Shown: positions 39,479 to 60,211, numbered from the stretch's first letter. The stretch: DNA of 64,000 bases from Vreelandella sedimenti (GCF_013416325.1 NZ_JACCGK010000001.1:124001-188000); one strand, 5' to 3'. Notes: generated from the sequence alone by a model not told the origin. Numbers and translations are program-made.

Positions 39479-40771
<1,293 letters not shown>

Positions 40772-41107
40772 CTGCGGGCTCCTTAAACATTGTCGCGATA
40801 TAGTCACGATGGTCATGTTGTGGTGTGTTGGCGCTGCCTTTAGAACGTGGAGAGCGAACGCCAACACCCATACGTTTTTGAGCTTACCGCTGTTAGCAAA
40901 CCAGATACGCTTGGCATGGCGTCAGCAACCGCGTAATCCTTCGTATTGTCTAGCTTGTGCAGCATGATTCACTGTCATGGGGAGCGCAGTGTAATCTGCG
41001 CCTTAAGCGTCGATTTAGACGCACTGCTTCGCTCCACAGCCGCCAAAACGGTATCCGCTGCCTCTCAAACCACCGTAGGATGACGTTTTAGCTAAGGAGA
41101 CGCTGCT
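40772..41107. other. 336-bp spacer between divergent gabT and ghrA
   Basis: No credible small gene was found. It holds the gabT and ghrA ribosome binding sites (AAGGAG both) and a short inverted repeat GCGTC-GATTTA-GACGC near 41007. A lone CTGTCAT lies near 40973 without a partner half site, so it is not called a Pho box. Promoters for both genes must lie here. Confidence 0.5.
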
Positions 41108-42108: not shown

Positions 42109-43569
42109 TTAGCTCAGTCCGCCCATATGAAACGCTTTCTCTTCTAAATATTCATCTAGCCCTTGGCGAGCACCTTCACGGCCCAGCCCCGACTGTTTCA
42201 TACCGCCAAACGGCGCTACTTCCATGGAAATGGAACCGGTGTTGAGGCCGACCATACCGAATTCCAGCGCTTCGCCAACCCGCCAGGCACGGCGCACACT
42301 CTCGGTAAAGAAGTAGGCGGCTAGCCCGTAGGGTGTTGCGTTGGCAATGCGGATGGCGTCTTCTTCGCTGTCAAATTGCATAATGGGCGCAACGGGGCCA
42401 AAGGTCTCTTCCTGGGTGACCAGCATGGCTTCGGTTACCTTGGTGAGCAGTACCGGCGTCACAAAGCGATCCTGGCCACTGGGCACCTCGCCGAGCACCC
42501 GTTCCGCACCATGGGATAAGGCATCATCGAGATGGCGGGCGACTTTGCTCACCGCCTGGTCATTGATAAGTGGGCCGATAGTGGTGCCTTCCTCCATCCC
42601 GTCGCCACAGCGCAGCGCCGCGATTTCCGTCGCCAAGCGGGCGACAAAGCGGTCATGGATGCCGGATTGAACCAGAATACGGTTAGCGCAAACACAGGTC
42701 TGCCCGGCATTGCGGAACTTGCTCGCCATAGCCCCGGCGACTGCGAGTTCCAGGTCAGCATCGTCAAACACGATCAGCGGGGCATTGCCGCCCAGTTCCA
42801 GGCTGAGGCGCTTTATATCGTCGGCACTCTGGCGCATCAGTAAGCTGCCCACCCGGGTAGAGCCGGTGAAGGAGAGCTTGCGCACGGTGGGGTTGGAGGT
42901 CAGTTCGCCACCAATCCCTTCGGGCAGCCCGGTAACAATATTGATCACCCCCGGAGGAAAGCCAGCACGCTCCGCGAGTATCGCCAAGGCCAGCGCTGAC
43001 AGCGGCGTCAGTTCTGACGGTTTGATCACAATCGGGCACCCCGCCGCCAGCGCCGGGGCGCACTTGCGGGTAATCATGGCAGTAGGGAAATTCCAGGGCG
43101 TAATCGCACCGCACACGCCTACCGGCTGCTTGAGGATCACAATGCGGCGATCCGCGCTGGGGGAGGGGATCGTCTCGCCATAGGCACGCCGCGCCTCTTC
43201 CGCAAACCACTTGATAAAACTTGCGCCGTACTGGATCTCTCCCCGCGCTTCGCTCAGCGGCTTGCCCTGTTCCAGGGTCATTAATATCGCCAGATCGTCG
43301 CTGTTTTCCAGTATCAGCGTATACCAGCGTTCCAACAGTGCCGCGCGCTCCGCCGCGGTGCGGGCACGCCAGGCAGGCCAGGCTGCTTCGGCGGCTTCAA
43401 TGGCACGGCGGGTTTCGCTGGCGCCCAGGCTGGGCACTCGGGCCAGTTCTTCGCCGGTGGCGGGGTTAGTGACGGTGAGCGTGGCCCCATCGTCGGCATC
43501 ACACCACTGGGCGTTGATAAAGGCCTGCTCGCGTAGCAGGTCATGGTCATTGAGGGGCAGCGTCGGCAT
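42109..43569 (-). CDS. gabD: NAD(P)-dependent succinate-semialdehyde dehydrogenase
   Basis: A 486-residue aldehyde dehydrogenase oxidising succinate semialdehyde to succinate. Motifs: the NAD loop GVCGAITPWNFPTAMITRK near residue 154, FTGSTRVG near 230, catalytic glutamate in LELGGNAPLIVFDDAD near 255, and catalytic cysteine in NAGQTCVCANR near 289. These match the GabD class. AAGGAG precedes the ATG. It lies behind the ABC transporter operon on the same strand and pairs with gabT. Glutarate semialdehyde is a possible alternate substrate. Confidence 0.9.
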   Translation of the reverse strand: MPTLPLNDHDLLREQAFINAQWCDADDGATLTVTNPATGEELARVPSLGASETRRAIEAAEAAWPAWRARTAAERAALLERWYTLILENSDDLAILMTLEQGKPLSEARGEIQYGASFIKWFAEEARRAYGETIPSPSADRRIVILKQPVGVCGAITPWNFPTAMITRKCAPALAAGCPIVIKPSELTPLSALALAILAERAGFPPGVINIVTGLPEGIGGELTSNPTVRKLSFTGSTRVGSLLMRQSADDIKRLSLELGGNAPLIVFDDADLELAVAGAMASKFRNAGQTCVCANRILVQSGIHDRFVARLATEIAALRCGDGMEEGTTIGPLINDQAVSKVARHLDDALSHGAERVLGEVPSGQDRFVTPVLLTKVTEAMLVTQEETFGPVAPIMQFDSEEDAIRIANATPYGLAAYFFTESVRRAWRVGEALEFGMVGLNTGSISMEVAPFGGMKQSGLGREGARQGLDEYLEEKAFHMGGLS

Positions 43570-43619: not shown

Positions 43620-45278
43620 TTAAACGGGCGAAGTTGACGGCTGTGTATGGGTCGACCATTGGCACGCCTCCAACCAGCCTGGTTGGAGCTCAGGCACCGA
43701 ACCAATCAGCTTGCGGGTGTAGTCGTGCTGGGGGTGATTGAGAACCGTGCTGCAGGGGCCGAATTCCACACACTCACCCTGGTAAAGCACCATGACGTCG
43801 TCGCACAGCGAGCGTACCGTCGAGATATCGTGGCTGATAAACAGGTAGGCAACGCCAAGCTCACGGCGCAGTTCTGCCAACAGTTCAAGAATGGCAGCAC
43901 CGACGACGGTATCTAACGCCGACGTCACTTCATCGCAAAGAATCAGGTCAGGTTCCGCAGCGAGCGCTCGGGCGAGATTGACGCGCTGTTTTTGGCCACC
44001 AGAAAGCTCGCTGGGCTTGCGGTCGAGCAGGGTGCGCGGCAGTTTGACCAGATCCATTAATTCTTCCACTCGCTGTCGGCGAGCATCGCGACTCATCTGG
44101 AAATAGGTTTCCAGCGGTCGGTTGAGTAGTCGCCTAACCGTGTGGGCTGGGTTGAGCGCATTGTCGGCGCTCTGAAAGACAATCTGGATACGCCGAAACT
44201 GCTCTGATGTGCGTCCGCGCAGCGTGGGAGATAGCTCCCGGCGGTTGAACTGTACTTCACCCCGTGAAGGGGCCACCAAACCAGCGACTGCCCGGGCAAG
44301 CGTCGACTTGCCTGACCCGGACTCGCCAATCACGCCTAGGGCCTGGCCTCGATCAATCCGCAGTCGAATGTGATCAAGCACGATATTGTCCGGTTCGCCG
44401 CTGCGGTTACGGTGCCCATAGCCCACTTGCAGATCATCAATGCGCAACAGTTCGTCGCCGCTGGACGCAAGTCTGGAGGGCACGCGGGTCTCCGGACGAG
44501 CCGCCGCCAATAAGCTACGCGTGTAGGCATGGCCCGGCTTGTCCAGAATTTGCCCAATGGGCCCTTGCTCCTGCTCTTCACCTGCTTGAAGCACCAAGAC
44601 GTGATCAGCAATCTGTGCGACGACAGCGAGGTCGTGAGAGACGTACAGCGCCGTGGTACCACGCTCGCGCATAACTCGCTTGAAGGCCCGCAGCACATCG
44701 ACCTGAGTGGTCACATCCAGTGCGGTGGTGGGCTCATCCAGAATCACTAGCGCGGGGTCGGTAATCAAGGCCATCGCGGCCATAAGACGCTGTAGCTGGC
44801 CGCCGGAGACCTGGTGAGGGTAACGGTCGCCAATATGTTCAGGGTCGGGCAGGGCCAGCTCGGCGAATAGTTGAATGGCTTTCTGCTGGGCTTGCTGTCG
44901 ATCCATAACGCCATGGATCAGCGCGCCTTCGATGACTTGATCCATTAGCCGGCGCGAGGGGTTGAAGGCTGCGGCTGCGCTTTGGGCGATATAGGTCACC
45001 CGGTGTCCGCGCAGCGCGCGGGTTTCCAGCGCAGGCAGCGTGAGTATATCGGTCTCGCCCAGTTGCACGCTGCCACCGGCGATCCGACAGCCGCGCCGGG
45101 CGTAACCCATCATGGCCAGCGCAATAGTGGTCTTGCCCGAACCGGACTCGCCGATCAACGCCATCACCTCGCCTGGCTTGAGCGCAAAACTAATCTGGCT
45201 GACGATCGTGCGCTCAACCTCTCCAGGCGGGGTCGCACAGATATCAAGATCGCGTACGATCAGTGATTCACCTTGCAT
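43620..45278 (-). CDS. Peptide/opine-type ABC transporter, two fused ATP-binding domains
   Basis: A 552-residue ATPase in which DppD-like and DppF-like domains are joined. Domain 1 (about residues 5-255) has Walker A GESGSGKTT and signature VSGGQLQRLMAAMAL. Domain 2 (about 275-530) has GESGSGKSTLAR, signature LSGGQKQRVNLARAL and Walker B LILCDEVTSALD. Such fused ATPases (GsiA-like) serve dipeptide, glutathione or opine importers. An AAGGAG site lies at the end of the preceding permease gene. It is part of a leftward operon with two permeases and a binding protein. Confidence 0.9.
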   Translation of the reverse strand: MQGESLIVRDLDICATPPGEVERTIVSQISFALKPGEVMALIGESGSGKTTIALAMMGYARRGCRIAGGSVQLGETDILTLPALETRALRGHRVTYIAQSAAAAFNPSRRLMDQVIEGALIHGVMDRQQAQQKAIQLFAELALPDPEHIGDRYPHQVSGGQLQRLMAAMALITDPALVILDEPTTALDVTTQVDVLRAFKRVMRERGTTALYVSHDLAVVAQIADHVLVLQAGEEQEQGPIGQILDKPGHAYTRSLLAAARPETRVPSRLASSGDELLRIDDLQVGYGHRNRSGEPDNIVLDHIRLRIDRGQALGVIGESGSGKSTLARAVAGLVAPSRGEVQFNRRELSPTLRGRTSEQFRRIQIVFQSADNALNPAHTVRRLLNRPLETYFQMSRDARRQRVEELMDLVKLPRTLLDRKPSELSGGQKQRVNLARALAAEPDLILCDEVTSALDTVVGAAILELLAELRRELGVAYLFISHDISTVRSLCDDVMVLYQGECVEFGPCSTVLNHPQHDYTRKLIGSVPELQPGWLEACQWSTHTQPSTSPV

Positions 45279-45282
45279 AGCG

Positions 45283-46191
45283 TCACTCCTTCTGGTTATC
45301 GCGGCTGTTCGAGAGACTGTCGATCAACAGGTTAGCGCCGACGGTTAATGAGCCAATCGCCAGTGCCGGGGCAATCACTGCCAGCGCCCCCTGGCTAAGA
45401 CCGCCGATGTTTTCACGCACCAGAGAGCCCAGGTCGGCGACCGGCGGCTGCACGCCCAGACCCAGAAAGCTCATGCCACTGAGCAGCAGGACGATAAACA
45501 CAAAGCGCATGCCCATATCGGTGAGCACGGGTTGGATCATGTTGGGAAAGATTTCCACAGCGGCGATGTACAGCCGTCCTTCTCCCCGGGTACTAGCGAC
45601 CTGCACGTACTCCAGGGTGGCGAGATTTTTGGCCAAGCTATGGGAAATGCGGAAAGAGCCCGGCGCATAGCTGAGCACTGCCGCCAGGATAAGCAGAGGA
45701 ATAGAGGTGCCAAAGGCGGACACCATCACCAGGGCCATCATTTTGCTGGGGATCGAGATGAGCGTGTCGAATACCCGGCGGATACTCTCTTCAAGCCAGT
45801 GCGGCAGTAACACTGTTAGCATGCCAAAGCCCGCCCCAACCAGAGTTGACAGTAACGCGGCCACCAGCGCCAGCCCCACGGTATAGCGCGCTCCTGTCAA
45901 TATACGGCTGAGCATATCGCGACCCATGTAGTCGGTGCCGAGCAGATGGGCAGCACTTGCCCCGCCGTATATCTGATCAGATACAAAGGCCCCCATTGGG
46001 TAGGGTGCAAACAGGGGCCCAAATATGGCCACTAATAGCCAGAAGCTAAATAAGCCAAGACCGATCCAGCGGGTTAGTTGCAACCGAGAACGATTGCGTT
46101 GTTTTGGTGAAGTAATCGGCAGGCGACTGCCCGCCATGGCATGTTGATGCGTGTTGCCCTTGGCGGATGGAATTACCTTGGTGTTATTCAT
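45283..46191 (-). CDS. Peptide/opine-type ABC transporter permease (DppC-like)
   Basis: A 302-residue inner-membrane protein with a cytoplasmic N-terminal tail of about 45 residues, then about six hydrophobic segments. The DppC/OppC N-terminal and coupling features include the GTDYMGRDMLSRILTGARYTVG segment near residue 92 and the EAA-like loop around YVQVASTRGEGRLYIAAVEIFPN near 200. The start overlaps the upstream permease stop by ATGA. It forms a heterodimer with the DppB-like protein. Confidence 0.88.
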   Translation of the reverse strand: MNNTKVIPSAKGNTHQHAMAGSRLPITSPKQRNRSRLQLTRWIGLGLFSFWLLVAIFGPLFAPYPMGAFVSDQIYGGASAAHLLGTDYMGRDMLSRILTGARYTVGLALVAALLSTLVGAGFGMLTVLLPHWLEESIRRVFDTLISIPSKMMALVMVSAFGTSIPLLILAAVLSYAPGSFRISHSLAKNLATLEYVQVASTRGEGRLYIAAVEIFPNMIQPVLTDMGMRFVFIVLLLSGMSFLGLGVQPPVADLGSLVRENIGGLSQGALAVIAPALAIGSLTVGANLLIDSLSNSRDNQKE

Positions 46192-47144
46192 CGGTTTCTC
46201 AGCCTCGGGTTAGAGAGGATCGCGCACAGGTCGGCCAGCATGACCAGCAGCAGATAAGCGCCGCAAAAGATCATGGCGCAGGCCTGTACCAGGGCGAGAT
46301 CCCGGTTGGAAACCGCATCGACCATTAAGCTGGCGATGCCTGGATAGTTGAAGATGGTTTCGACAATAATGACGCCACCGAGCAGGTACGAAAGACTCAG
46401 CGCCACTGCGTTGGCAATCGGGCCGACGGCGTTAGGCAGCGCATGACGCAGCACGCGCCGCATGGGCGGAACGCCTTTGAGCCGCGCCATCTCAACGTAA
46501 GCGCTGTCGAGTTGGTCGATTAAAGCGGCTCGGGTCATACGCGCCATTTGAGCAATTAATACGCTACACAGGGTGAGCACCGGCATGGCGTAAACTTTCA
46601 TAAAGGCGCCGAAACTGTCGACGGTGGAGACATAGGAGAGTGCCGGTAACCAGCCGAGTTGCACGGCAAAAATCAGCACCGCCAGGGTGGCGACCAGAAA
46701 CTCGGGTACCGCCACCATCGACAGGGTGATCAGGTTCAGGGTGCGGTCAAGCACGCCACCCCGGCGCATGGCGGCAGCGATACCCATAGTCAGCGCCACA
46801 GGGACAGAGATAGCGGTGGTAATCGCGGCTAGCAGTAACGAATTGGGGAGCCGGTCATTGACCAACTGTATGACATCCACGCCATTGCTAGCGGAGCGGC
46901 CCAGGTCGCCGGTGGCAAAGCCACTCAGCCACTGCCAGTAGCGCAGTAAGGGCGGCTGATTAAGGCCTAGCTGGGCACGCAGCGCCTCCACCTGTTCCGG
47001 GGTGGCAAACTGCCCCAGCACCTGCTGGGCGGTATCGCCTGGCAGCAGCGAGGTAATCGCAAAGATCACCAGCGATACCAGCAGCAGGGTAATAAGACTG
47101 GAGGCCAAGCGACCTAGCACCAGTCCAAAGAGAGAGTCGCGCAT
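46188..47144 (-). CDS. Peptide/opine-type ABC transporter permease (DppB-like)
   Basis: A 318-residue inner-membrane protein. The DppB/OppB hallmark N-terminal helix (RLASSLITLLLVSLVIFAITSLLPGD) is followed by ALRAQLGLNQPPLLRYWQWL, and the coupling loop is YVEMARLKGVPPMRRVLRHALPNA near residue 215. A TTG at 47162 would add six residues, but GGAGA sits between it and the ATG at 47144, which is therefore preferred. A complex hairpin lies between this gene and the binding-protein gene upstream. Confidence 0.88.
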   Translation of the reverse strand: MRDSLFGLVLGRLASSLITLLLVSLVIFAITSLLPGDTAQQVLGQFATPEQVEALRAQLGLNQPPLLRYWQWLSGFATGDLGRSASNGVDVIQLVNDRLPNSLLLAAITTAISVPVALTMGIAAAMRRGGVLDRTLNLITLSMVAVPEFLVATLAVLIFAVQLGWLPALSYVSTVDSFGAFMKVYAMPVLTLCSVLIAQMARMTRAALIDQLDSAYVEMARLKGVPPMRRVLRHALPNAVGPIANAVALSLSYLLGGVIIVETIFNYPGIASLMVDAVSNRDLALVQACAMIFCGAYLLLVMLADLCAILSNPRLRNR

Positions 47145-47163
47145 CTTTCTTCTCCGGCTCAAG

Positions 47164-47222
47164 GGCCATGTTGATCATCACCAGGGTAGAAATTAAACGC
47201 CCTGGTGATGATGTCCATGGCC
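47164..47222. terminator. Two-tier intercistronic hairpin after the opine/peptide binding-protein gene
   Basis: An outer 7-bp stem (GGCCATG with CATGGCC) encloses a symmetric 5/5 internal loop and an inner 11-bp stem (CATCACCAGGG with CCCTGGTGATG) with a 13-nt loop. It lies between the binding-protein stop and the first permease gene. There is no T-run, so a stabiliser or attenuator role is likely. Confidence 0.65.
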
Positions 47223-47248
47223 TGTGATCACAGTAGGGAGAGCAGGAA

Positions 47249-48889
47249 TTAGCCTTTCCACCAGATATGCTCGGCGAACATATAGCCCATGAAGCTGCCC
47301 AGGGGGACGGTGCGATCCATCCCGCCAATGCGCCCATCAAAGCCTTCGATGCTGCTTAGGAAGACGGGGATGCCGATGCCGCCCTCTTCATGAATCATGG
47401 TCTGCATATCGGCATACATCTGCTTGCGGGTGGCCTCATCGGGTTCACCTCGGGAGGCAATCACCAGTTGATCGAACTGCTCGTTCTGCCAGCCGGATTC
47501 GTTCCAGGCAGCGCTGGAGAGGAAGAACTGGGAGAGCAAAATATTCGCCGTGGGGCGCGGGTTGATATTGCCGAACCCAAGTGGGTGCTTCATCCAGTGG
47601 TTCGACCAGTAGCCGTCGGAGGGAACCCGGTTGATATTCAGGTTAAGCCCTGCCTGTGCCGCGGACTGCTGGAGTAGCACGGCCATATCTTCCGACGAGG
47701 AAGCCGCAGGCGACGCCACCAGCGGTACTGTTGCTCCACTAACCCCCGCCTTGGCAAGCAAGGAGGCGGCCCGCTCCGGGTCGTACTCGCGCTGGGGTAA
47801 CCCATCGAAGTGGTAGGGGGAACTGGAGATAATCGGCTGATCGTTGGCAACCTCGCCATAGCCGCGCAGGGCGACGCGTTTGATCTGCTCGCGGTCGAAG
47901 AGGTACTTCATCGCCTCGCGGAATTCGGGGCGACTGGTGGGCTGTTGGTCAAAGCGCATGACAAGGTCGGTGTAGTTACCGGCGTTCGTCGCTTTTACCT
48001 GATAGCCGTCACTGGTTTTCAAGCGCTCTGCGGAGTTGCCACTGACTTCATTGATCATCTGCACATCGCCAGAGAGCAGTGCATTGACCCGTGACGATTC
48101 GTCGCTAATCCCCACCACCTCGATGGAATCCAGGTAGGGATAGCCATCGCGCCAGTAGTTCTCATTCCGAACGCCGATCGAACGCACGCCGGGGGTAAAC
48201 TCTTGACACTTAAAGGCGCCGGTACCCAGCCCTTTCGAGAAGTCGGTGGTTCCATCGGCCACAATCACTAGGTGCGAAACGGCCAGGATAGAGGGCAACT
48301 CGATATTGGGCGAGGAGAGGTTGAGCTCGACACGCTGATCATCCAGGGCCCTGATACTGTCGATTTGCTCGACCATGGAGGCGACCTTTGAACCGGTGGC
48401 AGGGTCTTTATGACGCATGATCGAAAAGATCACATCCTGGGGTGTCAGTGGTTTGCCATCGTGGAAGGTAACGCCGCGCCGCAGGGTAAAGATCCAGTGG
48501 CTGCCGTTATCGGTATTCTCAAACGACTCCGCCAGGCAGGGCTGGGGCGTCAGATCTTCATCGTATTGGGTTAGGCCGTTATAAAACATGTAGGCGCGGA
48601 CATAGTCGATGGCCGTCGCCCCTAAGGCGGGATCCAGGGTGTCTTTCGTGGACGCCGAGTGTGCCGCGACGCGAATACTGCCGCCGTACTGGGGTGTTGC
48701 GCTTTCGCTGTCCGCCGCCCAAGCTGAAGAGAAACCGGGAAAGGCGCCAGACGCGGCGGCAAAGACACCCGCCGCGCCAATAACTTTCATGGCCTCGCGT
48801 CGAGACAGCCCGCGCTGCATGGCGTTGTAAACCTGCATGCTTTGTTCGGGAGAAACAAACAGATCATTAGGATTTTTTTCACGTGTCAT
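47249..48889 (-). CDS. Family 5 (peptide/opine/nickel) ABC transporter substrate-binding protein, Tat signal
   Basis: A 546-residue exported protein. LSRREAMKVIGAAGVFAAAS (about residues 28-47) is a twin-arginine signal after a cytoplasmic leader, so it is exported folded, unusual but known for this family. The mature part shows the SBP_bac_5 pattern: RVAAHSASTKDTLDPALGAT, then FHDGKPLTPQDVIFSIMRH, and VKATNAGNYTDLVMRFDQ. The frame extends to 48961; the ATG at 48889 has GGAGAAGG upstream. It opens the leftward transporter operon, with tandem repeats in its promoter region. Substrate unknown. Confidence 0.87.
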   Translation of the reverse strand: MTREKNPNDLFVSPEQSMQVYNAMQRGLSRREAMKVIGAAGVFAAASGAFPGFSSAWAADSESATPQYGGSIRVAAHSASTKDTLDPALGATAIDYVRAYMFYNGLTQYDEDLTPQPCLAESFENTDNGSHWIFTLRRGVTFHDGKPLTPQDVIFSIMRHKDPATGSKVASMVEQIDSIRALDDQRVELNLSSPNIELPSILAVSHLVIVADGTTDFSKGLGTGAFKCQEFTPGVRSIGVRNENYWRDGYPYLDSIEVVGISDESSRVNALLSGDVQMINEVSGNSAERLKTSDGYQVKATNAGNYTDLVMRFDQQPTSRPEFREAMKYLFDREQIKRVALRGYGEVANDQPIISSSPYHFDGLPQREYDPERAASLLAKAGVSGATVPLVASPAASSSEDMAVLLQQSAAQAGLNLNINRVPSDGYWSNHWMKHPLGFGNINPRPTANILLSQFFLSSAAWNESGWQNEQFDQLVIASRGEPDEATRKQMYADMQTMIHEEGGIGIPVFLSSIEGFDGRIGGMDRTVPLGSFMGYMFAEHIWWKG

Positions 48890-48966
48890 AAGCCTTCTCC
48901 TTACTGCGATTAAGTGTTTTTGTGAGTCTGGCAGCGCGTGCTTAGCTTTTTTTATAGCCATTTCTG

Positions 48967-49029
48967 TTAGTGGCTGTTTTTGTTAATAGCTGTCTTATTA
49001 ATAGCTGTTTTGATTAGTCGCTCTCTTGG
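48967..49029. repeat. Four imperfect tandem repeats (15-16 bp) upstream of the binding-protein gene
   Basis: Units TTAGTGGCTGTTTTTG, TTAATAGCTGTCTTA, TTAATAGCTGTTTTGA and TTAGTCGCTCTCTTGG follow each other without gaps. They lie 78-140 bp before the ABC binding-protein start, in the only long spacer of this operon, and could be an array of regulator sites or a slippage-derived repeat. Confidence 0.55.
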
Positions 49030-49066
49030 TGTGTCTTGTTAGCAATGTGCGGGCTAGGATGGTGGC

Positions 49067-50341
49067 TTAATGCAATCGATCCTGTAGTCGGTACCAACTG
49101 CCCACCAGGGGTAAAAACCACGGTTTTCCAAAATGACCGGGGATAGCTGGCCACTTGGTGTCCTGCCAAGGATGGTTTTGGCGGTTGCCCAGGATAACGT
49201 CGCCAAGCACATGCCCCATATGCACCGACATCTGTACCCCATGGCCGCTATAGCCCATGGCGTAGTACATGCCGTTGTGCTGTCCTGCATGGGGAAACCG
49301 GTCTTTGCTCATATCGACCAAACCACCCCAGCAGTAGTCGAGACGCACCCCTTTCAGTTGGGGAAAGGCCTCTTCCAGCCCCCGGCGCAGTATCTCGCCG
49401 CTTTTGGCATCCGATTGGCTACCGGACATGGCAAAACGAGCCCGCCCGCCAAACAGCAGCCGGTTATCGGCGGTAAGGCGGAAGTAGTGACCGACAATGC
49501 GACTGGTGACATAAGAGCGCCGCTGGGGAAGAAACTGGGCACACTGCGCTGCTGAAAGAGGCTCGGTGACGACGATAAAACTACCCACCGGTACCAGACG
49601 GCGGCGAAACCAGCTCAGCGGGCCTGTTTGCGATGCGCCGGTGGCCAGTAGTACGTTTTCGGCGCGAATATCGCCACTGGGTGTGCCTAATCGATACGCT
49701 GATTTCTCACGGGTTAAGCGGGTCATCGGCGTATGCTCAAAAAGATGCGCGCCATGACTGGCCGCCGCTTCGGCTAAGCCGATGCCAAAGCGGCCCATAT
49801 GCATTTGGCCACCGTTATGTTGCAGCAGTCCGCCATAATAGAGCGGCGAATCGACCTCCTCTCTAACGGCGGTTGCGGAGAGCATCTCTACGCCGCTATC
49901 CACATCACGGCGAATGGCGTCGCAGGTGCGCGCAAGTTTGTCGTAGTGTTCCGGCTTAGCCGCCAGTTTTAGCTTGCCGTGGCGCAGGTAGTCGCAGTTA
50001 ATGGTCTCTTCGGCAATCACCTGCTCGACGCTGGAGACTGCCTCGGCGTAGGTGGTGTAGTGGGCAATCGCCCGCTCGCGGCCAAATTGTTCGACCAGAC
50101 TGGCGTAGTCTTGGGCCACGCCGGTGTTGCACTGGCCGCCATTGCGCCCTGAAGCTTCACCAATGAGTTGGCTCGCCTCCAGTAGCGCTACACGGGCACC
50201 GCCTCGGGCTAGCGTGCGGGCAGCGGATAGCCCGGTAAAACCACCGCCAACCACTGCAACATCGTAGTGCTCTTGAGTGAATGCCTGCTGGCCCGCGCTA
50301 AAGGTGGGAGCCGTGGACAGCCAATAGGAGTTTAGTTGCAT
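49067..50341 (-). CDS. FAD-dependent amine oxidoreductase (PuuB/DadA-like)
   Basis: A 424-residue flavoprotein. The FAD motif is VAVVGGGFTGLSAARTLARGG near residue 28, followed by EASGRNGGQCNTG, the pattern of gamma-glutamylputrescine oxidase and related amine oxidases. The C-terminal YAMGYSGHGVQMSVHMGHVLGD segment closes the FAD site. The frame extends to 50467, but the ATG at 50341 has AGGAG upstream. With an aldehyde dehydrogenase and GabT/GabD nearby, it may produce an aldehyde from an N-substituted amine or amino acid; PuuA and PuuD are absent, so the standard Puu pathway is not complete here. Confidence 0.83.
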   Translation of the reverse strand: MQLNSYWLSTAPTFSAGQQAFTQEHYDVAVVGGGFTGLSAARTLARGGARVALLEASQLIGEASGRNGGQCNTGVAQDYASLVEQFGRERAIAHYTTYAEAVSSVEQVIAEETINCDYLRHGKLKLAAKPEHYDKLARTCDAIRRDVDSGVEMLSATAVREEVDSPLYYGGLLQHNGGQMHMGRFGIGLAEAAASHGAHLFEHTPMTRLTREKSAYRLGTPSGDIRAENVLLATGASQTGPLSWFRRRLVPVGSFIVVTEPLSAAQCAQFLPQRRSYVTSRIVGHYFRLTADNRLLFGGRARFAMSGSQSDAKSGEILRRGLEEAFPQLKGVRLDYCWGGLVDMSKDRFPHAGQHNGMYYAMGYSGHGVQMSVHMGHVLGDVILGNRQNHPWQDTKWPAIPGHFGKPWFLPLVGSWYRLQDRLH

Positions 50342-50375
50342 GGGCGACTCCTGCACGGTTCGCGCAACAGACGGC

Positions 50376-51050
50376 TTAAAGACCGACGAGTGCTGGCAAG
50401 TCGCGGATATCGTTAATTTTGGTGGCCCCATAGCCGTCGCAATAGGGTTCGTGATTGCGTGCCACAAAGGCTTTATTCTTAATACCCATTAGATGGGCTG
50501 AAATAAGGTCGTAGCGGAAACTTGATGAAACGTGCAGAAGCTCATCAGGGTGGCAGTCCAAGCTATCGATCATGGCTTCGAAGGCGGCTAAACGGGGCTT
50601 ATAGACTTTGAACGTATCGGCAGTGAAAACCTTGTGAAAAGGCACCTCAAGCTTTTGCACGTTAGCCATGATTTGGCTGTCATCGGCGTTGGAGTAAATC
50701 ACCAGGGGGATTTTGTCGGCAATTTTCGCCAGTCCCTTAATCACGTCTGGGTGCGGGCCCCAGGTGGGTACGGCCTGGTAATACAGCATGCCTTCGTTGT
50801 CACGGTATTCGATGCCCCAACGTTTGCAGGTGCGTTCAAGCGCCGCGCAGAGAATCTCAGCGTAGGGCTTCCACTCGCCGAGCACTTCGTCATAACGGTA
50901 GGCGCCAAAGTCTTGTACGAAACGTTCCATGCGTTCTGCATCAGGGATACGATCGGCAAAAATTTCGCGCGTCATGCGCCCCATCTGGAAGTTGGTGAGT
51001 GTGCCGTAACAATCAAAGGTGATGTACTTAGGGCGCATAATCTCGCTCAT
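50376..51050 (-). CDS. Haloacid dehalogenase, type II-like
   Basis: A 224-residue HAD protein with motif I FDCYGTLTNFQ (Asp nucleophile, residue 10), motif II VIYSNADD (Ser near 120), a lysine in VYKPRLAAF near residue 150, and the end motif VSSSFRYDLISAHLMGIKNKAFVAR. These fit L-2-haloacid dehalogenase relatives, which replace a 2-halogen or act on related 2-substituted acids. The terminal NxxD is RYD here. GAGG lies upstream of the ATG. It sits between two FAD oxidoreductase genes on the same strand, so its substrate is probably an intermediate of that pathway and not a halogenated acid; this is inference. Confidence 0.8.
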   Translation of the reverse strand: MSEIMRPKYITFDCYGTLTNFQMGRMTREIFADRIPDAERMERFVQDFGAYRYDEVLGEWKPYAEILCAALERTCKRWGIEYRDNEGMLYYQAVPTWGPHPDVIKGLAKIADKIPLVIYSNADDSQIMANVQKLEVPFHKVFTADTFKVYKPRLAAFEAMIDSLDCHPDELLHVSSSFRYDLISAHLMGIKNKAFVARNHEPYCDGYGATKINDIRDLPALVGL

Positions 51051-51218
51051 GTTGTTTGATCCTCTTTTGTCATCATCGTGGTGGTGGGAGAGTTCTTAGC
51101 GCAGCCACTCATTTCATTACAGCATTCTCGAGCAGGCGCCAGACGCTGAAAGTGCGCGCCTGACTAACACAAACGCGCTTTTTTTTTGGCCCATGCAGCA
51201 CACAATGCGGCGGCCCAT

Positions 51219-52550
51219 TTACATCATTTCTGGCTGGCGGATACGACTGCCATCGGAGAAACGTTTGATGTGGTAAGGGAGGGGATTAACCACCGGCGCG
51301 GAATTGGTGGCTAAATCAGCCGCTAACCGGCCGGCCCCCGGGCCAATGCCAAAGCCGTGGCCGCTAAAGCCAGCGGCGACGATAAAGCCGGGGATGGCAT
51401 CCACCGGGGAGATGATCGGTATCATATCCGGCGTGGTATCGATCATGCCGGCCCAGGCGCGGGCAATATGGACACCTTTGAGCGCCGGGTACTCGGCCTG
51501 CAGGGCAGCCAGGGCAGCACGTGCCTGAGGAATGTCAGGGGTGGGGTCAAGCACGCGCTGGCGCTCAAACGGCGATACCTGATCAAACTGCCAGCTACCC
51601 GCCGCTTCTGGCCCATTGAAGAAAGACGCGCCAATGCGGATTTGCAGCTTTTTGGCTAATTTGCTTCGGTAGGCGGCGTAGAATTTGCTCGCATAGCGAA
51701 TCCCTTGGGGGCTGATTTCCACCCGGCCAAGCCCTGGCAGCGCCAAGGTGTAGCTGCCATCCAGGCGGCGGCGCAGTGCGACCTTGGGGGTGATCAGACA
51801 GCCCGGTGTGACCTCCGGCGCGGCGGTGGTTTGCAGTGCGGTGCCCATGATATTGGCCGAAGGTAGCTCAACGCCGTGGCGACGGCAGAAGCGAGAACTC
51901 CAGGCCCCGCCTGCACAGATGACCGTCGAGGCTTTGATCAATCCGTGCTCCGTCCAAACGCCGCCCACACGCCCGTCATGCAGGTCCAGGCCGCGCACCG
52001 CACAGTTTTGGTGAAGGTAGGCGCCGTGTTCACGGGCCCCAGTAGCGATGGCCGAGCAGGCCATCGAGGGCTCGGCCTGGGCATCGCTGGGCGACCAGAC
52101 GCCACCAATGCAGGTTGAGGTAGTGCCAGGCGCCCGCTCACGGGCTTCTTCGGCACTCAACATATGGCTGGTAAAGCCCTGTTCCTGGGCCTGTTGCCCC
52201 CACGCCTCCCATTTAGCAAGGCTAGCTTGGCTATCGGTGGTGTAAACAATGCCGTTGCGACGAAACCCCACGTCGCGCCCAATCTCGGTGGAGAACGCTT
52301 GCCAACGATCGAGGCTATACATGGCTAGCGGCAGTTCGAACATATCGCGATTCTGCTGGCGTACCCAGCCCCAGTTGCGGCTTGATTGCTCAGCGCCGAT
52401 AAGCCCCTTCTCCAGCAGCGCCACCGATACCCCTTGGCGAGCCAACTCATAGGCGGCGGTCGTCCCCACAATGCCGCCACCGATAACCACCACATCAACC
52501 TGTTCGGGCAGGGCAGGAGAGTCGTGCACGGCGTCTACGTTGATAAACAT
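51219..52550 (-). CDS. FAD-dependent amino-acid/opine oxidoreductase (DadA/OoxB-like)
   Basis: A 443-residue DAO-family flavoprotein. The FAD motif is VVVIGGGIVGTTAAYELARQG near residue 20, and a SSRNWGWVRQQNRD segment follows near 57. AWAGMIDTTPDMIPIIS and AAGFSGHGFGIGPGAGRLAADL near the C-terminus are typical of D-amino-acid dehydrogenase and octopine/nopaline oxidase-type B subunits. GAGG lies upstream of the ATG. It is the second FAD oxidase of the block; together with the peptide/opine-type transporter it suggests import and oxidative cleavage of an N-substituted amino acid. Substrate not determinable. Confidence 0.82.
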   Translation of the reverse strand: MFINVDAVHDSPALPEQVDVVVIGGGIVGTTAAYELARQGVSVALLEKGLIGAEQSSRNWGWVRQQNRDMFELPLAMYSLDRWQAFSTEIGRDVGFRRNGIVYTTDSQASLAKWEAWGQQAQEQGFTSHMLSAEEARERAPGTTSTCIGGVWSPSDAQAEPSMACSAIATGAREHGAYLHQNCAVRGLDLHDGRVGGVWTEHGLIKASTVICAGGAWSSRFCRRHGVELPSANIMGTALQTTAAPEVTPGCLITPKVALRRRLDGSYTLALPGLGRVEISPQGIRYASKFYAAYRSKLAKKLQIRIGASFFNGPEAAGSWQFDQVSPFERQRVLDPTPDIPQARAALAALQAEYPALKGVHIARAWAGMIDTTPDMIPIISPVDAIPGFIVAAGFSGHGFGIGPGAGRLAADLATNSAPVVNPLPYHIKRFSDGSRIRQPEMM

Positions 52551-52602
52551 GCTTGCTACCTCTATTTGGTAGATAAAGTAACCATCGAATTCGCTGCGTC
52601 AC

Positions 52603-54078
52603 TCACTGGTCGAGATCAATCAGCACGCTTTTGTGCTGCAGGCAGGCGTCAAAGGCGGCACGGCCTAGATCACGGCCTACGCCTGAGCGCTTATAGCCGC
52701 CAGTGGGCAGAATGTAGTCGTTGCTGCGGCCGTAACGGTTAACCCATACCGTGCCCGCCGAAAGTCTGCGCACTGTGCGCAGCGCGCGCCCCAGGTCAGC
52801 GGTATGAATGCCAGCTGCTAAGCCGTAAACATCGTGCTCGGCCAGCGCTAACGCCTCCTCTTCACTCTCGAAGGTTTGAATGGTCAGCACCGGACCGAAG
52901 ATTTCTTCCTCCACGGCGGGATTGTGGCGGTCGTTCGTATGCAGCAGGGTGGGTTGGTAAAAGTGGCCGCCATCATTGCGTTCAAAGCGCTCTCCACCGC
53001 CCAGCAATTCAGCGCCCGCCTCGCGGGAGCGTGCCACAATGGATTCAATGCGGGTCAACTGGGTAGCGGAAATAATCGGTGAAAACCAACCACCTGTTTG
53101 CCAGGTAGGGCCAGGGGTGAGGGCGTTAAAATGCTTGCTCAAGCGCTCAATCATGGGCTCCAACAGTTCGTGTTGGATCAATAGCCGTGAGCCTGCGACG
53201 CATACTTGCCCAGCGTTGCCGGTAATCGCCGCAGCGAGGGTTTTAGCGGTGCGATCAATATCCGGGATATCGGCAAACACCAGTTGCGGGCTCTTGCCAC
53301 CTAGCTCCAGGGTGACCGGCTTGGGTCCGGTTTCTGCACAGGCGCCCATGATGGTGCGCCCTGTCACCGTTGAGCCGGTGAAGGTGACCTTGGCCACATA
53401 GGGGTGACGGCATAGCGCGTCGCCGGTCACGGGGCCATTGCCTTGAATGACGTTGAACACACCTGGAGGCATGCCCGCCTTAATGGCTAACTCGGCCAGC
53501 CGCACGGCGGTGAAAGGGGTCATCTCGGAGGGTTTGAGCACCACTGTGTTGCCTGCGGCCAAAGCGGGGGCGACTTTCCAGCAGGTCATGCTGAGGGGAA
53601 AATTCCAGGGCGCGATGGCCCCGACGACGCCCAACGGCTCGGCAATCTGCATACCCAGATGGTCGTGGGCGGTCGCTGCTACCTCGCCGCCGTGCTTGTC
53701 GGCGAATTCCGCAAAGAAGCGAATGCCCTCAGCGGTGTAGGGCACATCCCAGGCCCGGGTCTGATCAATCGGCCGGGTGGAGCCGAGGGATTCCAGCGGG
53801 GCGAGATAGTCAATATCGGCCTCAATCAGGTCTGCCCAGCGGCGCATGATGCGTGCCCGCTCCCGCGGCGCGCAGCGTGACCAGTCGCCGCGCACAAACG
53901 CTTGGTGAGCACTGGTGACGGCATCATCGACGCGATTGGCATCGGCCATGGGCAGTTCGGCATAAACGGCGCCGTCGGAGGGGCGGGATACGCTGAGCGC
54001 GCTGGGGTCAGTTACGCGCTGTCCCTGAATAAAGTGCGCACAGGGCAAGGCAATGCGGGCAGGATCGAAACTTGGCAT
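52603..54078 (-). CDS. NAD-dependent aldehyde dehydrogenase (betaine-/aminobutyraldehyde-type)
   Basis: A 491-residue aldehyde dehydrogenase. NAD loop GVVGAIAPWNFPLSMTCWK lies near residue 153, FTGSTVTGRTIM near 230, catalytic glutamate in LELGGKSPQLVFAD near 253, and catalytic cysteine in NAGQVCVAGSRL near 287. Similar enzymes (PuuC-like, BetB-like) oxidise amino- or betaine-type aldehydes. It is the most upstream gene of the leftward FAD-HAD-FAD-ALDH run and plausibly removes the aldehyde produced by the oxidases. Confidence 0.87.
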   Translation of the reverse strand: MPSFDPARIALPCAHFIQGQRVTDPSALSVSRPSDGAVYAELPMADANRVDDAVTSAHQAFVRGDWSRCAPRERARIMRRWADLIEADIDYLAPLESLGSTRPIDQTRAWDVPYTAEGIRFFAEFADKHGGEVAATAHDHLGMQIAEPLGVVGAIAPWNFPLSMTCWKVAPALAAGNTVVLKPSEMTPFTAVRLAELAIKAGMPPGVFNVIQGNGPVTGDALCRHPYVAKVTFTGSTVTGRTIMGACAETGPKPVTLELGGKSPQLVFADIPDIDRTAKTLAAAITGNAGQVCVAGSRLLIQHELLEPMIERLSKHFNALTPGPTWQTGGWFSPIISATQLTRIESIVARSREAGAELLGGGERFERNDGGHFYQPTLLHTNDRHNPAVEEEIFGPVLTIQTFESEEEALALAEHDVYGLAAGIHTADLGRALRTVRRLSAGTVWVNRYGRSNDYILPTGGYKRSGVGRDLGRAAFDACLQHKSVLIDLDQ

Positions 54079-54313: not shown

Positions 54314-55183
54314 ATGCCCCACTCCTCTTCGATGTCTGCTTCTGCTAACCCTCCCTCCCGCTTTGAACGTGAGGACTTAACGTGGCGAACCATGACCCTG
54401 AACGATCTTGAGGCGGCGCATCGCCTGTCGTTCAAGCTCGGCTGGCCTCACCGCATCGATGATTGGCGCCAGATGCTTGATGTAGGAGAGGGCGTCGTGC
54501 TGGAAAGCGTCGACGGTGAGTTAGTGGGAACCGGGCTCTGTTTCAACCAAGGGGCTGTGGCTAACCTGGGGCTGGTGATTATTAGCGACGAGTGGCAGGG
54601 CTGGGGGCTCGGGCGCGAGATGATGACGCGGCTGATGGCCCTAGCGGGCAAGCGGACGCTGCTGTTGGTCGCCACGACCGCAGGCCTGCCCTTGTACCAA
54701 AAACTGGGCTTTGAGCCCTGCAATCGGATCTGCCAATACCAGGGGAGGGTCACCGAGGTTCCGTCTGCGCCGCTGCAGCCGGGTTTACGCGCGATGGAGG
54801 CAAGCGATCAGGCGGCGCTGCTCGCGCTCTCTCCCGACAGCCCGGCTCATGCGGTGGCCGTTCAATCTGCTAACAAAGGGGTGGTGATTGAAAATGCGGG
54901 CGTTATTGAAGGGTTAGCGCTAAAGCGTACTTATGGGCGCGGTGAGCATATTGGCCCCATTCTAGCGCGCAGTGCCGAACAGGCTCAGGCGTTGGTATTG
55001 GCGCTGTTGGCGGACGCTGAGGGTGATTTTATACGCATCGACTTAGTCGATCCCGACGACGATAGCTGGCTGACGGCCTTAGGACTTAACTGCGTCGACC
55101 AGATTACCCGCATGCGCTGTGGCGATGCCGTCGGGGAAGGGCCACTAACGCGCTTTGGCTTGATTACTCAGGCAATGGGTTAG
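54314..55183 (+). CDS. GNAT-family N-acetyltransferase
   Basis: A 289-residue protein with an acetyl-CoA-binding GNAT domain (about residues 22-150): the EWQGWGLGREMMTRLMA loop near residue 96 is the Q/RxxGxG/A pyrophosphate motif. A second domain (about 160-285) resembles the YitH/HpaA-type C-terminal acetyltransferase-like fold. AAGGAAA precedes the ATG at 54314; an internal ATG eight codons in is also possible. It is followed after 15 bp by an amidohydrolase, suggesting opposite reactions on an amino or acyl-amino compound. Substrate unknown. Confidence 0.8.
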   Translation: MPHSSSMSASANPPSRFEREDLTWRTMTLNDLEAAHRLSFKLGWPHRIDDWRQMLDVGEGVVLESVDGELVGTGLCFNQGAVANLGLVIISDEWQGWGLGREMMTRLMALAGKRTLLLVATTAGLPLYQKLGFEPCNRICQYQGRVTEVPSAPLQPGLRAMEASDQAALLALSPDSPAHAVAVQSANKGVVIENAGVIEGLALKRTYGRGEHIGPILARSAEQAQALVLALLADAEGDFIRIDLVDPDDDSWLTALGLNCVDQITRMRCGDAVGEGPLTRFGLITQAMG

Positions 55184-57321: not shown

Positions 57322-57474
57322 GTGGGCCTCGCGTGGCTCATCGGTGTTTCCTGCATTTTATCAATGCCCTAAGCCTAGCGGCTTAAGACAGCCGTTTGCA
57401 TATATTTAAAAGAAATATTCTTATCTTCTATTGTTTTATGTGACTGCCTTGCTAATGGTTTGTTCTTTAGTCTA

Positions 57475-57500
57475 GTCTGAAATCAGACATCTGATGTCTG
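57475..57500. promoter_or_regulatory. Overlapping palindromes, candidate operator of the FCD regulator
   Basis: CAGACATC-T-GATGTCTG (57484-57500) is a 17-bp inverted repeat with perfect 8-bp arms. GTCTGA-AA-TCAGAC (57475-57488) overlaps it. It lies 38 bp before the asparaginase start and between the two divergent genes. Confidence 0.65.
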
Positions 57501-57537
57501 TTGTGTGTGGCAAAAAGCATAAAAAATGGGAACCTGA

Positions 57538-58533: not shown

Positions 58534-58610
58534 GCGGCCTTTTAACCTTGCTCAACTGCAGTAACAGGAAACTAAAAAGCAATTCATCATAACTAAATAA
58601 GGTGCTGGAC

Positions 58611-60196: not shown

Positions 60197-60211
60197 CCCT
60201 GGAGGGCGACC

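Follow-up and report, generated by a model that had tools for sequence, protein, structure and literature searches.

A conserved bacterial gene island that may catabolise nicotianamine and mugineic-acid-type metallophores

The window (the whole stretch of 64,000 nucleotides that was analysed, presumably from a halophile of the Halomonadaceae) carries a gene island that, on balance, we take to encode the catabolism of N-substituted L-azetidine-2-carboxylate (AZC) metallophores, namely nicotianamine, mugineic-acid phytosiderophores and simpler N-substituted AZC compounds. Grasses secrete mugineic acids for iron, and nicotianamine is general in plants. We favour a chelator of the nicotianamine type because an importer and amine-cleaving enzymes occur in the island together with a relative of the enzyme that opens the AZC ring. 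The original prediction had placed a catabolic system at 43620-54078, and every ORF that it named is present where it was placed. This core stands, but the island is wider, spanning about 38.2-55.2 kb of the window: it continues to the left to the genes for Lrp, HADb, GabT and GhrA and to the right to GNAT, with M20 added in Halomonadaceae. The genes are as follows.

38243..38731, minus strand: Lrp/AsnC-type regulator, left end of the island (PRK11169 Lrp model, 133.3 bits, below the cut-off of 233)
38797..39441, minus strand: HADb, a diverged HAD-like protein (PDB matches to AZC hydrolase and 8hp5-7 only)
39479..40867, minus strand: GabT-like class III aminotransferase, proposed 4-amino-2-hydroxybutyrate transaminase (TIGR00700, 511.4 against a cut-off of 506.65)
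41108..42034, plus strand: GhrA-type D-2-hydroxyacid dehydrogenase (PRK15469, 214.2 bits, below the cut-off of 403)
42109..43569, minus strand: GabD-type semialdehyde dehydrogenase, proposed to convert malate semialdehyde to D-malate (TIGR01780, 683.6 against 646.35)
43620..45278, minus strand: fused ABC ATPase of the importer (PF00005, two stretches)
45283..46191, minus strand: ABC permease C, Dpp/Opp/Nik-type (Opp1C/NikC-like, below cut-offs)
46188..47162, minus strand: ABC permease B, Dpp/Opp/Nik-type (Opp2B/NikB-like, below cut-offs)
47249..48961, minus strand: family 5 solute-binding protein (SBP) with a twin-arginine-type signal (PF00496 SBP_bac_5, 261.4 bits)
49067..50467, minus strand: FADa, DAO-family oxidase, proposed to carry out oxidative N-CH2 cleavage (PF01266)
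50376..51050, minus strand: HAD, type II HAD hydrolase, proposed azetidine ring-opening enzyme (TIGR01428, 156.2 against 125.4 bits)
51219..52550, minus strand: FADb, DAO-family FAD oxidase, L-amino-acid-deaminase-like (PDB matches 5fjm and 5hxw)
52603..54078, minus strand: ALDH, proposed to oxidise aspartate or malate semialdehyde (PF00171)
54314..55183, plus strand: GNAT acetyltransferase (PF00583, PF18014)
55199..56494, plus strand: M20 amidohydrolase, with the island in Halomonadaceae (TIGR01891, 318.9 against 153.75 bits)

The FADa ORF overlaps HAD because the listed FADa start is an upstream TTG; homologues begin at the segment matching MQLNSYWL, and the true start is probably near 50341.

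The HAD had been said to lack a place in known opine pathways. It does have a precedent, as its nearest solved relatives by sequence are AZC hydrolase and the protein of entry 8hp5. A single-sequence search of the PDB gave 76.8 bits for AZC hydrolase (3smv, 8ywo and 9v14) and 74.5 for 8hp5, the next matches being cis-epoxysuccinate hydrolases at 41.6; a profile of the HAD family gave 109.3 for 8hp5 and 105.7 for 3smv, followed again by cis-epoxysuccinate hydrolases at 61.4. Classic L-2-haloacid dehalogenases reached at most 56.1 bits in the profile search and are not its closest relatives by sequence. The 8hp5 protein was itself deposited under the name (S)-2-haloacid dehalogenase, and the title of entry 8hp7, a mutant of it, describes trapping with (2R)-4-amino-2-hydroxybutanoic acid. 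The expected arrangement of two DAO-family FAD oxidases flanking a type II HAD was borne out by Pfam matches and by a TIGR01428 score above cut-off. The HAD has the type II set of catalytic Asp, Thr, Asn, Lys and final Asp, whose roles we take to be those in haloacid dehalogenases, and D13, T17, N121, K151, S175 and D181 were invariant in 39 of 39 aligned sequences. Identity of the family to 3smv is only 28-36%, and the active-site letters differ (SSSFRYD in the HAD, AESLYHD in AZC hydrolase). In the tree, the HAD lies outside the clade of 3smv and 8hp5, in a separate clade (100/100) that is a weak sister (80/45) to a group of 3smv, 8hp5 and c38. In fold comparisons with a structure model (pLDDT 94.1), the top VIA row was 8hp7 (Z 25.7), with AZC hydrolases and ordinary haloacid dehalogenases tied in mixed order from Z 25.7 to 23.6; cis-epoxysuccinate hydrolases filled the first three Foldseek rows.

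The original prediction had proposed a comparison of gene neighbourhoods, and the neighbourhood proved to be conserved: all six core genes occur together in 57 of 84 homologous loci, and in 53 of the 84, among them loci of Halomonadaceae, Pseudomonas, Vibrio, Burkholderiales and Woeseia, they form an uninterrupted run on one strand (HAD-FAD oxidase-SBP-permeases-ATPase). Sinorhizobium/Ensifer loci have the same core genes divided between both strands. Similarity to the HAD was the basis for collecting the 84 loci, some of which are near-identical or share a genome, and they do not count as 84 independent events; at these frequencies, the linkage of the core genes is more than chance. GNAT is present in 50/84 loci and GhrA in 38/84, and M20 homologues of 62-91% identity adjoin GNAT in 10 loci. 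A window-type GabT was counted in 1/84 and HADb likewise in 1/84, in loci of about 20 kb that often end before them, and loci outside Halomonas mostly have other aminotransferases or none. An island gene is uncommon, being found in 22 of 151 genomes of the family and 12 of 390 of the order, and islands occur in various soil and plant bacteria, including Pseudomonas, Sinorhizobium (pSymA), Ralstonia, Variovorax and Halomonas.

From the gene families, their linkage, the kinship and fold of the HAD and the clade of GabT, we infer a substrate, an order of steps and the individual reactions. The SBP and the Dpp/Nik-type ABC transporter would import the chelator, free or metal-bound. FADa would cut N-CH2 bonds oxidatively to give aspartate or malate semialdehyde, joined in other species by an extra flavin oxidase pair, OxrB/FADc; FADb may deaminate the alpha-amine, and ALDH would oxidise the released semialdehydes. 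The Asp nucleophile of the type II HAD is predicted to attack azetidine C2, the ring nitrogen leaving like the halide in haloacid dehalogenases, to yield (2R)-4-amino-2-hydroxybutyrate, or an N-substituted form of it if the HAD precedes cleavage. GabT could then form malate semialdehyde, GabD D-malate, and a D-malate/tartrate dehydrogenase pyruvate. A single catabolic system that imports an N-substituted amino acid, cleaves it oxidatively at an N-C bond to give an aldehyde and has ALDH, GabT and GabD downstream, as first proposed, is still the best reading, but entry through succinate is not: D-malate and aspartate appear more likely, because the 8hp5 protein was trapped with (2R)-4-amino-2-hydroxybutanoic acid (entry 8hp7) and because, of the 22 loci with a tartrate/D-malate dehydrogenase gene (TTC), 17 have it no more than 400 bp from GabD. 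The dehydrogenase is beside GabD in many islands; in this genome, it is encoded elsewhere.

GabT links the island to authentic AZC hydrolase. GabD and GabT both score above the cut-offs of their models, GabT barely. Among the matches listed in eight genomes, the window GabT was 63-66% identical to nine GabT genes and at most 50% to the others; eight of the nine lie in HAD islands or AZC-hydrolase loci, and one had no HAD found nearby. Its clade in the tree (14 rows, 11 genes, support 99/98) comprises five genes in main-HAD islands, two in islands with a c38-type AZC-hydrolase-like HAD, three beside authentic AZC hydrolase and one with no HAD found. We rejected a housekeeping GABA transaminase, since copies beside GabD in presumed gabDT pairs are at most 50% identical and fall outside this clade. 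Orthologues of the window GabT (62-64%) are direct neighbours of authentic AZC hydrolase genes (99%, 85% and 81% identical to 3smv) or one gene removed from them. The GabD genes near these hydrolases are 48-50% identical to that of the window; in five genomes, GabD genes of 69-75% identity sit within the main-HAD or c38-HAD islands, and no other paralogue exceeds 61%. HADb had five significant PDB matches, all to AZC hydrolase or 8hp5-7 entries (best 52.9 bits), and nothing at E<=0.001 in Pfam and NCBIfam. In the alignment, its first Asp is kept but the Ser-Asn, Lys and last Asp motifs are missing, and it is possibly non-catalytic. The order GabT-HADb-Lrp is kept in islands L154, L156 and L158; after the transporter, the L157/L158 island reads OxrB-FADc-GabD-TTC-GhrA-GabT-HADb-Lrp, and contig C48 of the same genome carries c38-type HAD-FAD oxidase-GNAT-GhrA-GabD with a PotA-type importer.

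This linkage of GabT and GabD to authentic AZC hydrolase needs AZC alone, and it is conceivable, if unlikely, that the substrate is AZC itself or some other AZC derivative with no connection to metallophores, such as AZC-containing microbial products; N-alkyl or acyl forms would then be what the oxidases act on. Locus L117, which carries the 99% AZC hydrolase, argues for a difference between the two kinds of locus: an amino acid permease stands two genes away from its hydrolase, FADa, SBP and the permeases gave no match there, and only a distant ABC ATPase (26%) is present at the edge. The contrast is not clean, as two flavin oxidase genes and an ABC importer lie close to the authentic AZC hydrolase of another locus, L118. 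The SBP-5 importer, the amine oxidases and the second ALDH would nevertheless suit a larger, N-substituted molecule.

The importer and oxidases could also serve an opine, a polyamine or an N-alkyl amino acid that has no azetidine ring, as first suggested, with the HAD acting on another downstream 2-substituted acid; we regard this as rather improbable. In the PDB, the SBP is nearest by sequence to AapF and to AgaA, whose structure was determined with agropinic acid; OxrB and FADc occur in 38 and 37 of the 84 loci; and the ATPase passes the CntD and CntF staphylopine models (402.5 against 380 and 401.3 against 385) together with NikD and NikE. Such a substrate leaves unexplained both the AZC-hydrolase-type HAD and the GabT clade common to AZC-hydrolase loci. 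The family 5 SBP, permeases and fused ATPase are as predicted, but 'opine' is an analogy only, because, by fold, dipeptide, nickel-chelate and opine binders match the SBP model equally well. The signal region at the N-terminus of the SBP holds an Arg-Arg pair that is invariant in 16 of 16 aligned homologues. The SBP fails the CntA model (84.6 against 800), and with the permeases falls far below Cnt/Nik cut-offs. The best NCBIfam models for FADa were Phn_aa_oxid (180.6 bits) and L-pipecolate oxidase AmaA (174.4), both below cut-off, and the best PDB matches for FADb were 5fjm (210.7) and 5hxw (194.3). The 'betaine-aldehyde-type' label of ALDH is valid only for the superfamily because the subfamily model scores 420.6 bits against a cut-off of 668.6; all 25 subfamily models shown fall below theirs.

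Additional modules accompanying the core in related islands suit hydroxylated mugineic acids. TTC, the threonine-dehydratase-like and ornithine-cyclodeaminase-like genes and the kinase/phospho-lyase are absent from the window's own island. TTC passes TIGR02089 (577.8 against 470.4; one representative, L108). GabT3, which is aminotransferase-like, has PLP phospho-lyases of the ethanolamine-phosphate type as its nearest solved relatives (351.2 and 346.0 bits, next 178.4; one representative, L068), and a kinase-type gene is present in 15 of 15 GabT3 loci. This combination, predicted beforehand, fits the need of 4-amino-2,3-dihydroxybutyrate from 3-hydroxy-AZC. BhcB/BhcD hydroxyaspartate-cycle identity was rejected as superfamily resemblance only (NF045641, 266 against 550; NF045643, 225 against 500; L050 and L082). 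Siderophore-type TonB receptors adjoin some islands. Tentatively, these may be modular, horizontally spread islands that mineralise the whole mugineic-acid family. The core would handle nicotianamine and deoxymugineic acid, with the HAD opening an N-substituted azetidine; HAD2, kinase and phospho-lyase the 3-hydroxyazetidine of hydroxymugineic acids (3-hydroxy-AZC to 4-amino-2,3-dihydroxybutyrate, its phosphate and malate semialdehyde); the threonine-dehydratase-like and ornithine-cyclodeaminase-like pair the 3-hydroxyaspartate unit of mugineic acid; and the TonB receptors import of the iron complex. We know of no described HAD that opens an N-substituted azetidine.

The name of TTC, tartrate dehydrogenase, and the rank of cis-epoxysuccinate hydrolases in the sequence and Foldseek searches would agree with a HAD that works on a C4 dicarboxylate as an epoxide hydrolase or dehalogenase, turning cis-epoxysuccinate into tartrate. 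We consider this very improbable: these hydrolases score below AZC hydrolase in both sequence searches, and the amine oxidases, GabT, GabD and the SBP-5 importer would have no role. We give scarcely any credence to a mixed island, with transporter and oxidases for one compound, a GabT/GabD/HADb unit for AZC- or GABA-like amines and semialdehydes as their sole link, since the GabD-GabT-HADb-Lrp-GhrA part that occurs in G602 and G763 with no main-HAD match at E<=1e-60 travels there with another AZC-hydrolase-like HAD and a FADa paralogue, which is the same logic, even if several of the 84 loci show the HAD with no transporter in view.

The island differs in several ways from the known systems closest to it. 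AZC hydrolase of Pseudomonas sp. A2C (3smv, 8ywo) is likewise a type II HAD with GabT and GabD genes nearby; the island HAD is about 30% identical to it, in a clade of its own, and the island adds a peptide-type ABC importer, FAD amine oxidases and ALDH. Unlike AZC hydrolase, the island HAD probably acts on N-substituted AZC. Opine operons (the agropinic/mannopinic acid binders AgaA and MoaA, with opine oxidases) share an SBP-5 importer and a flavin oxidase acting on an N-substituted amino acid; the window oxidases are single-chain DAO proteins, and to our knowledge no opine catabolic operon has a ring-opening HAD. CntABCDF and NikABCDE share the ATPase type and the logic of metal-chelate import, whereas the island SBP and permeases score far lower and are linked to catabolic enzymes. 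The putrescine Puu route and GABA shunt have the same types of FAD oxidase, ALDH, GabT and GabD, but the window GabT belongs to an AZC-linked clade apart from presumed housekeeping gabDT copies. Aspergillus AzhA, in the portion of the source cited here, assimilates AZC through the GABA pathway alongside the Mpr1-type acetyltransferase NgnA, and the same text calls the Pseudomonas AZC hydrolase periplasmic (PMC8016842). By analogy with this GABA-type route and its acetyltransferase, GNAT (best PDB match only 28.9 bits) is proposed to N-acetylate and detoxify AZC-type intermediates, and may acetylate toxic AZC itself.

The literature, in the excerpts used here, describes rapid destruction of phytosiderophores by soil microbes, and a 2021 source states in the part cited that the taxa and genes behind this degradation were unknown (PMC7786132). 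Of the iron-responsive SBW25 genes in that source, the three with an annotation all fall outside the island families, and a fourth is unannotated. An iron-fertiliser study reports, in the section cited, that a deoxymugineic acid analogue with proline replacing AZC acted longer than the natural compound in calcareous soil, which fits ring-opening attack as an important step (PMC7946895). Having a defined set of genes in Pseudomonas, Sinorhizobium pSymA, Ralstonia, Variovorax and Halomonas would allow chelator degradation to be tested through simple gene deletions and would tie the iron nutrition of plants to bacteria that can be identified.

ORF and profile searches bore out the gene content that the original prediction had assigned to this system. 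All of the named genes are present, intact and leftward, with the families it had given: a fused ABC ATPase (ABC), two permeases (PermB and PermC), a family 5 solute-binding protein (SBP), two DAO-family FAD oxidases (FADa, 49067-50467, and FADb, 51219-52550), a type II HAD hydrolase that exceeds its curated cut-off (the main HAD, 50376-51050), an aldehyde dehydrogenase (ALDH) and GabD, with GabT further left. All 16 aligned homologues share the twin-arginine pair of the SBP. This observation is confirmed; the core genes stood, but the range had been drawn too narrowly, as the following genes recur with the island in relatives:

38243: Lrp, left part of the island
38797-39441: HADb, left part of the island
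39479, leftward: GabT, left part of the island
41108, strand opposite to the leftward genes: GhrA
54314: GNAT, right end of the island

HADb, a divergent HAD in which most catalytic motifs are missing, may serve as a pseudo-enzyme in regulation or scaffolding; its homologues (32-36% identity) adjoin GabT and Lrp in islands L068, L121, L122, L154, L156 and L158.

A PDB sequence search with the main HAD ranked L-azetidine-2-carboxylate (AZC) hydrolase structures best (3smv, 8ywo and 9v14; 76.8 bits), followed by 8hp5 (74.5 bits), cis-epoxysuccinate hydrolase (41.6 bits) and haloacid dehalogenases of other kinds (at most 36.2 bits). Similarly, a profile of 39 family members scored 8hp5 at 109.3 and 3smv at 105.7 bits, with the next entry at 61.4 and classic dehalogenases at 56.1 or below. 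The 8hp5 protein was deposited as an (S)-2-haloacid dehalogenase, and the title of entry 8hp7, a mutant of it, names (2R)-4-amino-2-hydroxybutanoic acid as the compound it was trapped with; this would be the AZC-hydrolase product with inverted configuration. Residues D13, T17, N121, K151, S175 and D181, whose catalytic roles we take to be those of haloacid dehalogenases, were invariant in 39 of 39 members. The predicted model was confident (pLDDT 94.1), but its best structural rows mixed AZC-type and haloacid dehalogenase entries (Z 25.7 to 23.6), and the Foldseek ranking began with cis-epoxysuccinate hydrolases and had 8ywo in fourth place, so function cannot be read from the fold alone. An epoxysuccinate or tartrate reading is thus weakened by the sequence searches, although Foldseek favours it. 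In a type II HAD tree of 37 rows, for which a D..GT motif filter removed 10 of 30 TIGR01428 loci and retained 20, main HADs and HAD2, a partner gene of related islands, formed one clade (support 100/100) that was sister, with weak support (80/45), to AZC hydrolases and c38-type HADs, a second AZC-hydrolase-like kind. The main HAD may well work like an AZC hydrolase without being a proven member of that group, and we consider it probable that it opens an azetidine-type ring.

An island that produces 4-amino-2-hydroxybutyrate would be expected to have a GabT related to those encoded next to real AZC hydrolases. The 3smv protein was matched in 5 of 249 genomes of a genus that is presumably Pseudomonas (E ≤ 1e-35), and the identity was 70-99% in three of them. 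In these three, a GabT 62-64% identical to that of the window adjoins the hydrolase or lies one gene away, GabD (48-50%) is nearby, and two also have GabT2 (56%), an aminotransferase of Burkholderiales and Ensifer islands. In the other two genomes (40-41%), a c38-type HAD occurs with GabD (69%), GabT (64-66%), HADb (32%) and Lrp (69-71%); a cupin gene, GhrA (54-55%) and a paralogue of FADa (33-34%) are also near. All other GabT paralogues listed in the eight genomes searched were at most 50% identical to the window's. A maximum-likelihood tree of 75 rows, midpoint-rooted and with long branches, placed the window GabT inside a 14-row, 11-gene set (support 99/98) comprising genes from five main-HAD islands (including the window's), two c38 islands and three loci beside authentic AZC hydrolases; the eleventh, on contig 24 of genome G649 (L153), has GabD present and no HAD found in 20 kb. 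Under the same midpoint root, island GabT2 groups with GabT2 of two AZC-hydrolase loci. A housekeeping GabDT pair is rejected on the identity gap and the tree. This kinship is the strongest evidence in the analysis.

The neighbourhood also proved to be conserved. We compared 84 loci (79 among the best 80 HAD matches in named bacterial genomes, and five plasmid records) of about 8-25 kb, some ending at contig ends. Partners were counted from a tblastn table from which matches covering less than 40% of the query were dropped; ORF clustering was set aside because of many shadow ORFs in GC-rich genomes. The run HAD-FADa-SBP-PermB-PermC-ABC was contiguous on one strand in 53 of the 84 listed loci. 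This run was preferred to HAD-FADa spacing within 250 bp (51/84), which is an undercount because the FADa query has an over-long N terminus that overlaps HAD in Halomonas. Transporter and oxidase partners among the listed loci were ABC (69), FADa (67), PermB (64), PermC (63) and SBP (63), followed by GNAT (50), ALDH (45), GabD (44), GhrA (38), OxrB (38), FADc (37), Lrp (35), FADb (33), a tartrate/D-malate dehydrogenase-type gene (TTC; 22), GabT2 (22), M20 (22), cupin (15), GabT3 (15), the threonine-dehydratase-like TD (12), c38-type HAD (10), the ornithine-cyclodeaminase-like OCD (9), HAD2 (9), kinase-type APH (9), APHb (7) and a TonB receptor (7). Window-type GabT and HADb were each scored in 1/84, in a table that misses genes cut by a locus end, such as GabT at the edge of L031, L033, L035, L037 and L038. 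Transporter genes lie a few genes away on the other strand in the Sinorhizobium/Ensifer loci L027, L097 and L108, and in some loci (for example, L045-L048, L059, L066, L075, L079 and L081) a complete transporter set is not in view beside the HAD.

The host taxa comprise, among others, Halomonadaceae, Pseudomonas, Vibrio, Pokkaliibacter, Marinobacterium, Woeseia, Ralstonia, Variovorax, Massilia, Paraburkholderia, Trinickia, Cupriavidus and Ensifer/Sinorhizobium (pSymA); Vreelandella titanicae BH1 (L031) and the laboratory strain Sinorhizobium meliloti 1021 (L110) are among the carriers. These loci are not independent, as seven have a HAD 95-99% identical to the window's and some genomes contribute two. 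Core proteins outside Halomonadaceae are about 44-72% identical to those of the window, which suggests that selection on the set as a whole, or its transfer, underlies the common order. The HAD gene is an accessory trait, found in 22 of 151 genomes of the window's family (E ≤ 1e-20), 12 of 390 of its order and 54 of 249 of one genus, presumably Pseudomonas (E ≤ 1e-60). In Halomonas LCM1.Bin22 (L034, 10001-20672), the adjacent enzymes ALDH, FADb, HAD and FADa share 90-98% identity with those of the window, and the importer is of a different Dpp type (26-43%). In G137 (contig C1, 1980272-1980948; L020 and L025), the HAD is in two pieces (86-87% identity) in different frames, which is a frameshift or sequencing error. 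TonB receptors related (41-100%) to one from Massilia that carries a siderophore-type annotation occur in 7/84 listed loci (L029, L099, L100, L101, L104, L105 and L109), from Massilia, Variovorax, Paucibacter, Woeseia and two bins; they are a possible outer-membrane route for an iron complex.

Elsewhere in the window, a sugar-type ABC importer, an IolC-DUF2090 fusion, IolD and an ALDH (12572-22790) probably form a myo-inositol catabolic cluster, and the genes at 3994-6969, for an ABC permease in which BPD_transp_1 is matched twice and then for a class V aminotransferase, could be a candidate 2-aminoethylphosphonate set. A TonB-dependent haem/haemoglobin-type receptor (32102-34078; TIGR01785, 368.1 versus a cut-off of 316.85) and a PhoX-family protein (34579-36714) are also present. 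Adjoining the island (56563-61994) are GntR and an asparaginase-like protein (each in 3/84 listed loci), a TRAP transporter and a 155-amino-acid protein, RidA-like by eye with no NCBIfam match (each in 1/84).

On the proposed pathway, oxidative cleavage of N-CH2 bonds, of the kind carried out by opine oxidases, would convert nicotianamine to aspartate semialdehyde and deoxymugineic acid to malate semialdehyde. The azetidine unit would be opened by the HAD to (2R)-4-amino-2-hydroxybutyrate, which GabT would convert to malate semialdehyde and GabD then to D-malate. FADb resembles L-amino acid deaminase. Of the 22 listed loci that hold TTC, 17 have it no more than 400 bp from GabD, and its representative scores above the cut-off of the tartrate-dehydrogenase model TIGR02089, a family that presumably oxidizes D-malate; the window's genome has two TTC homologues (50-52%) outside the island. 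Among the listed loci, a kinase-type gene accompanies HAD2 (9/9) and GabT3 (15/15), and the best-matching solved structures for one GabT3 are those of PLP phospho-lyases (351 and 346 bits, against 178 for the next), a kinship predicted before that search. TD is present in 9/9 listed loci holding OCD, and the representatives of both fell below the BhcB/BhcD cut-offs. These accessory modules would fit hydroxylated mugineic acids, if the structures and hydroxylation positions are as we take them to be. The predicted SBP structure (pLDDT 73.5) gave no ligand clue when compared with solved structures; GNAT had no close solved relative in the PDB search, and can be likened to Mpr1 by analogy only.

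Free AZC is a rival candidate substrate. L117, which encodes a 99% AZC hydrolase, is accompanied by genes for an amino acid permease, an EamA transporter and a PucR regulator; FADa, SBP and the permeases have no match there, and the only ABC ATPase is a distant one (26%) at the locus edge. In the island, by contrast, the ring-opening HAD is coupled to an SBP-5 importer and two or more flavin oxidases, with ALDH in 45/84 listed loci. The contrast is not clean, because L118, with an authentic AZC hydrolase, also carries an importer of the branched-chain type and two genes for flavin oxidases, one of them related to FADa (29%), and L120 has a 20% FADb relative. A second operon in the window's own genome (contig C48; L189, 4116-15249) has the same theme with another importer: a PotA-type ATPase (TIGR01187, 358.5 versus a cut-off of 355.6), a binding protein and two permeases, with a c38-type HAD (52%), a FADa paralogue (32%), GNAT (37%), GhrA (56%) and GabD (59%), adjoining AraC and LysE genes. 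We infer that the two operons serve two N-substituted AZC substrates of different size. A plain dipeptide or putrescine route is insufficient, as it accounts for neither the HAD nor the GabT clade.

In the accessible parts of the literature, which mostly exclude subscription journals, no description tied the gene set to AZC, nicotianamine or phytosiderophores, apart from PMC8016842, which concerns AZC hydrolase itself and describes, in Aspergillus, its product, assimilation through the GABA pathway and an acetyltransferase. According to PMC7786132, levels of mugineic and deoxymugineic acid fall with P. fluorescens SBW25, some P. putida strains did not degrade them, and the taxa and genes of phytosiderophore metabolism are 'currently unknown'. 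That paper gives four iron-responsive genes, and the three with an annotation all fall outside the island families, so the nicotianamine-family reading is not helped. PMC7946895 reports that PDMA, a proline analogue, acted longer in soil, and its authors suspect the strained ring; PDMA was itself biodegradable in an assay against citrate and EDTA. The lower microbial degradation on proline substitution is repeated in PMC12364333. In PMC8079746, mugineic acid comes up in a single passage and the island genes in none.

Together, these data improve on the earlier interpretation, in which an N-substituted amino acid or amine was oxidized to an aldehyde that entered through succinate; we lean towards a nicotianamine-family chelator as the natural substrate of the island. 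The requirement for a nicotianamine synthase in nitrogen fixation in Medicago nodules, as given in PMC10341464, is of interest because Sinorhizobium pSymA carries island genes.
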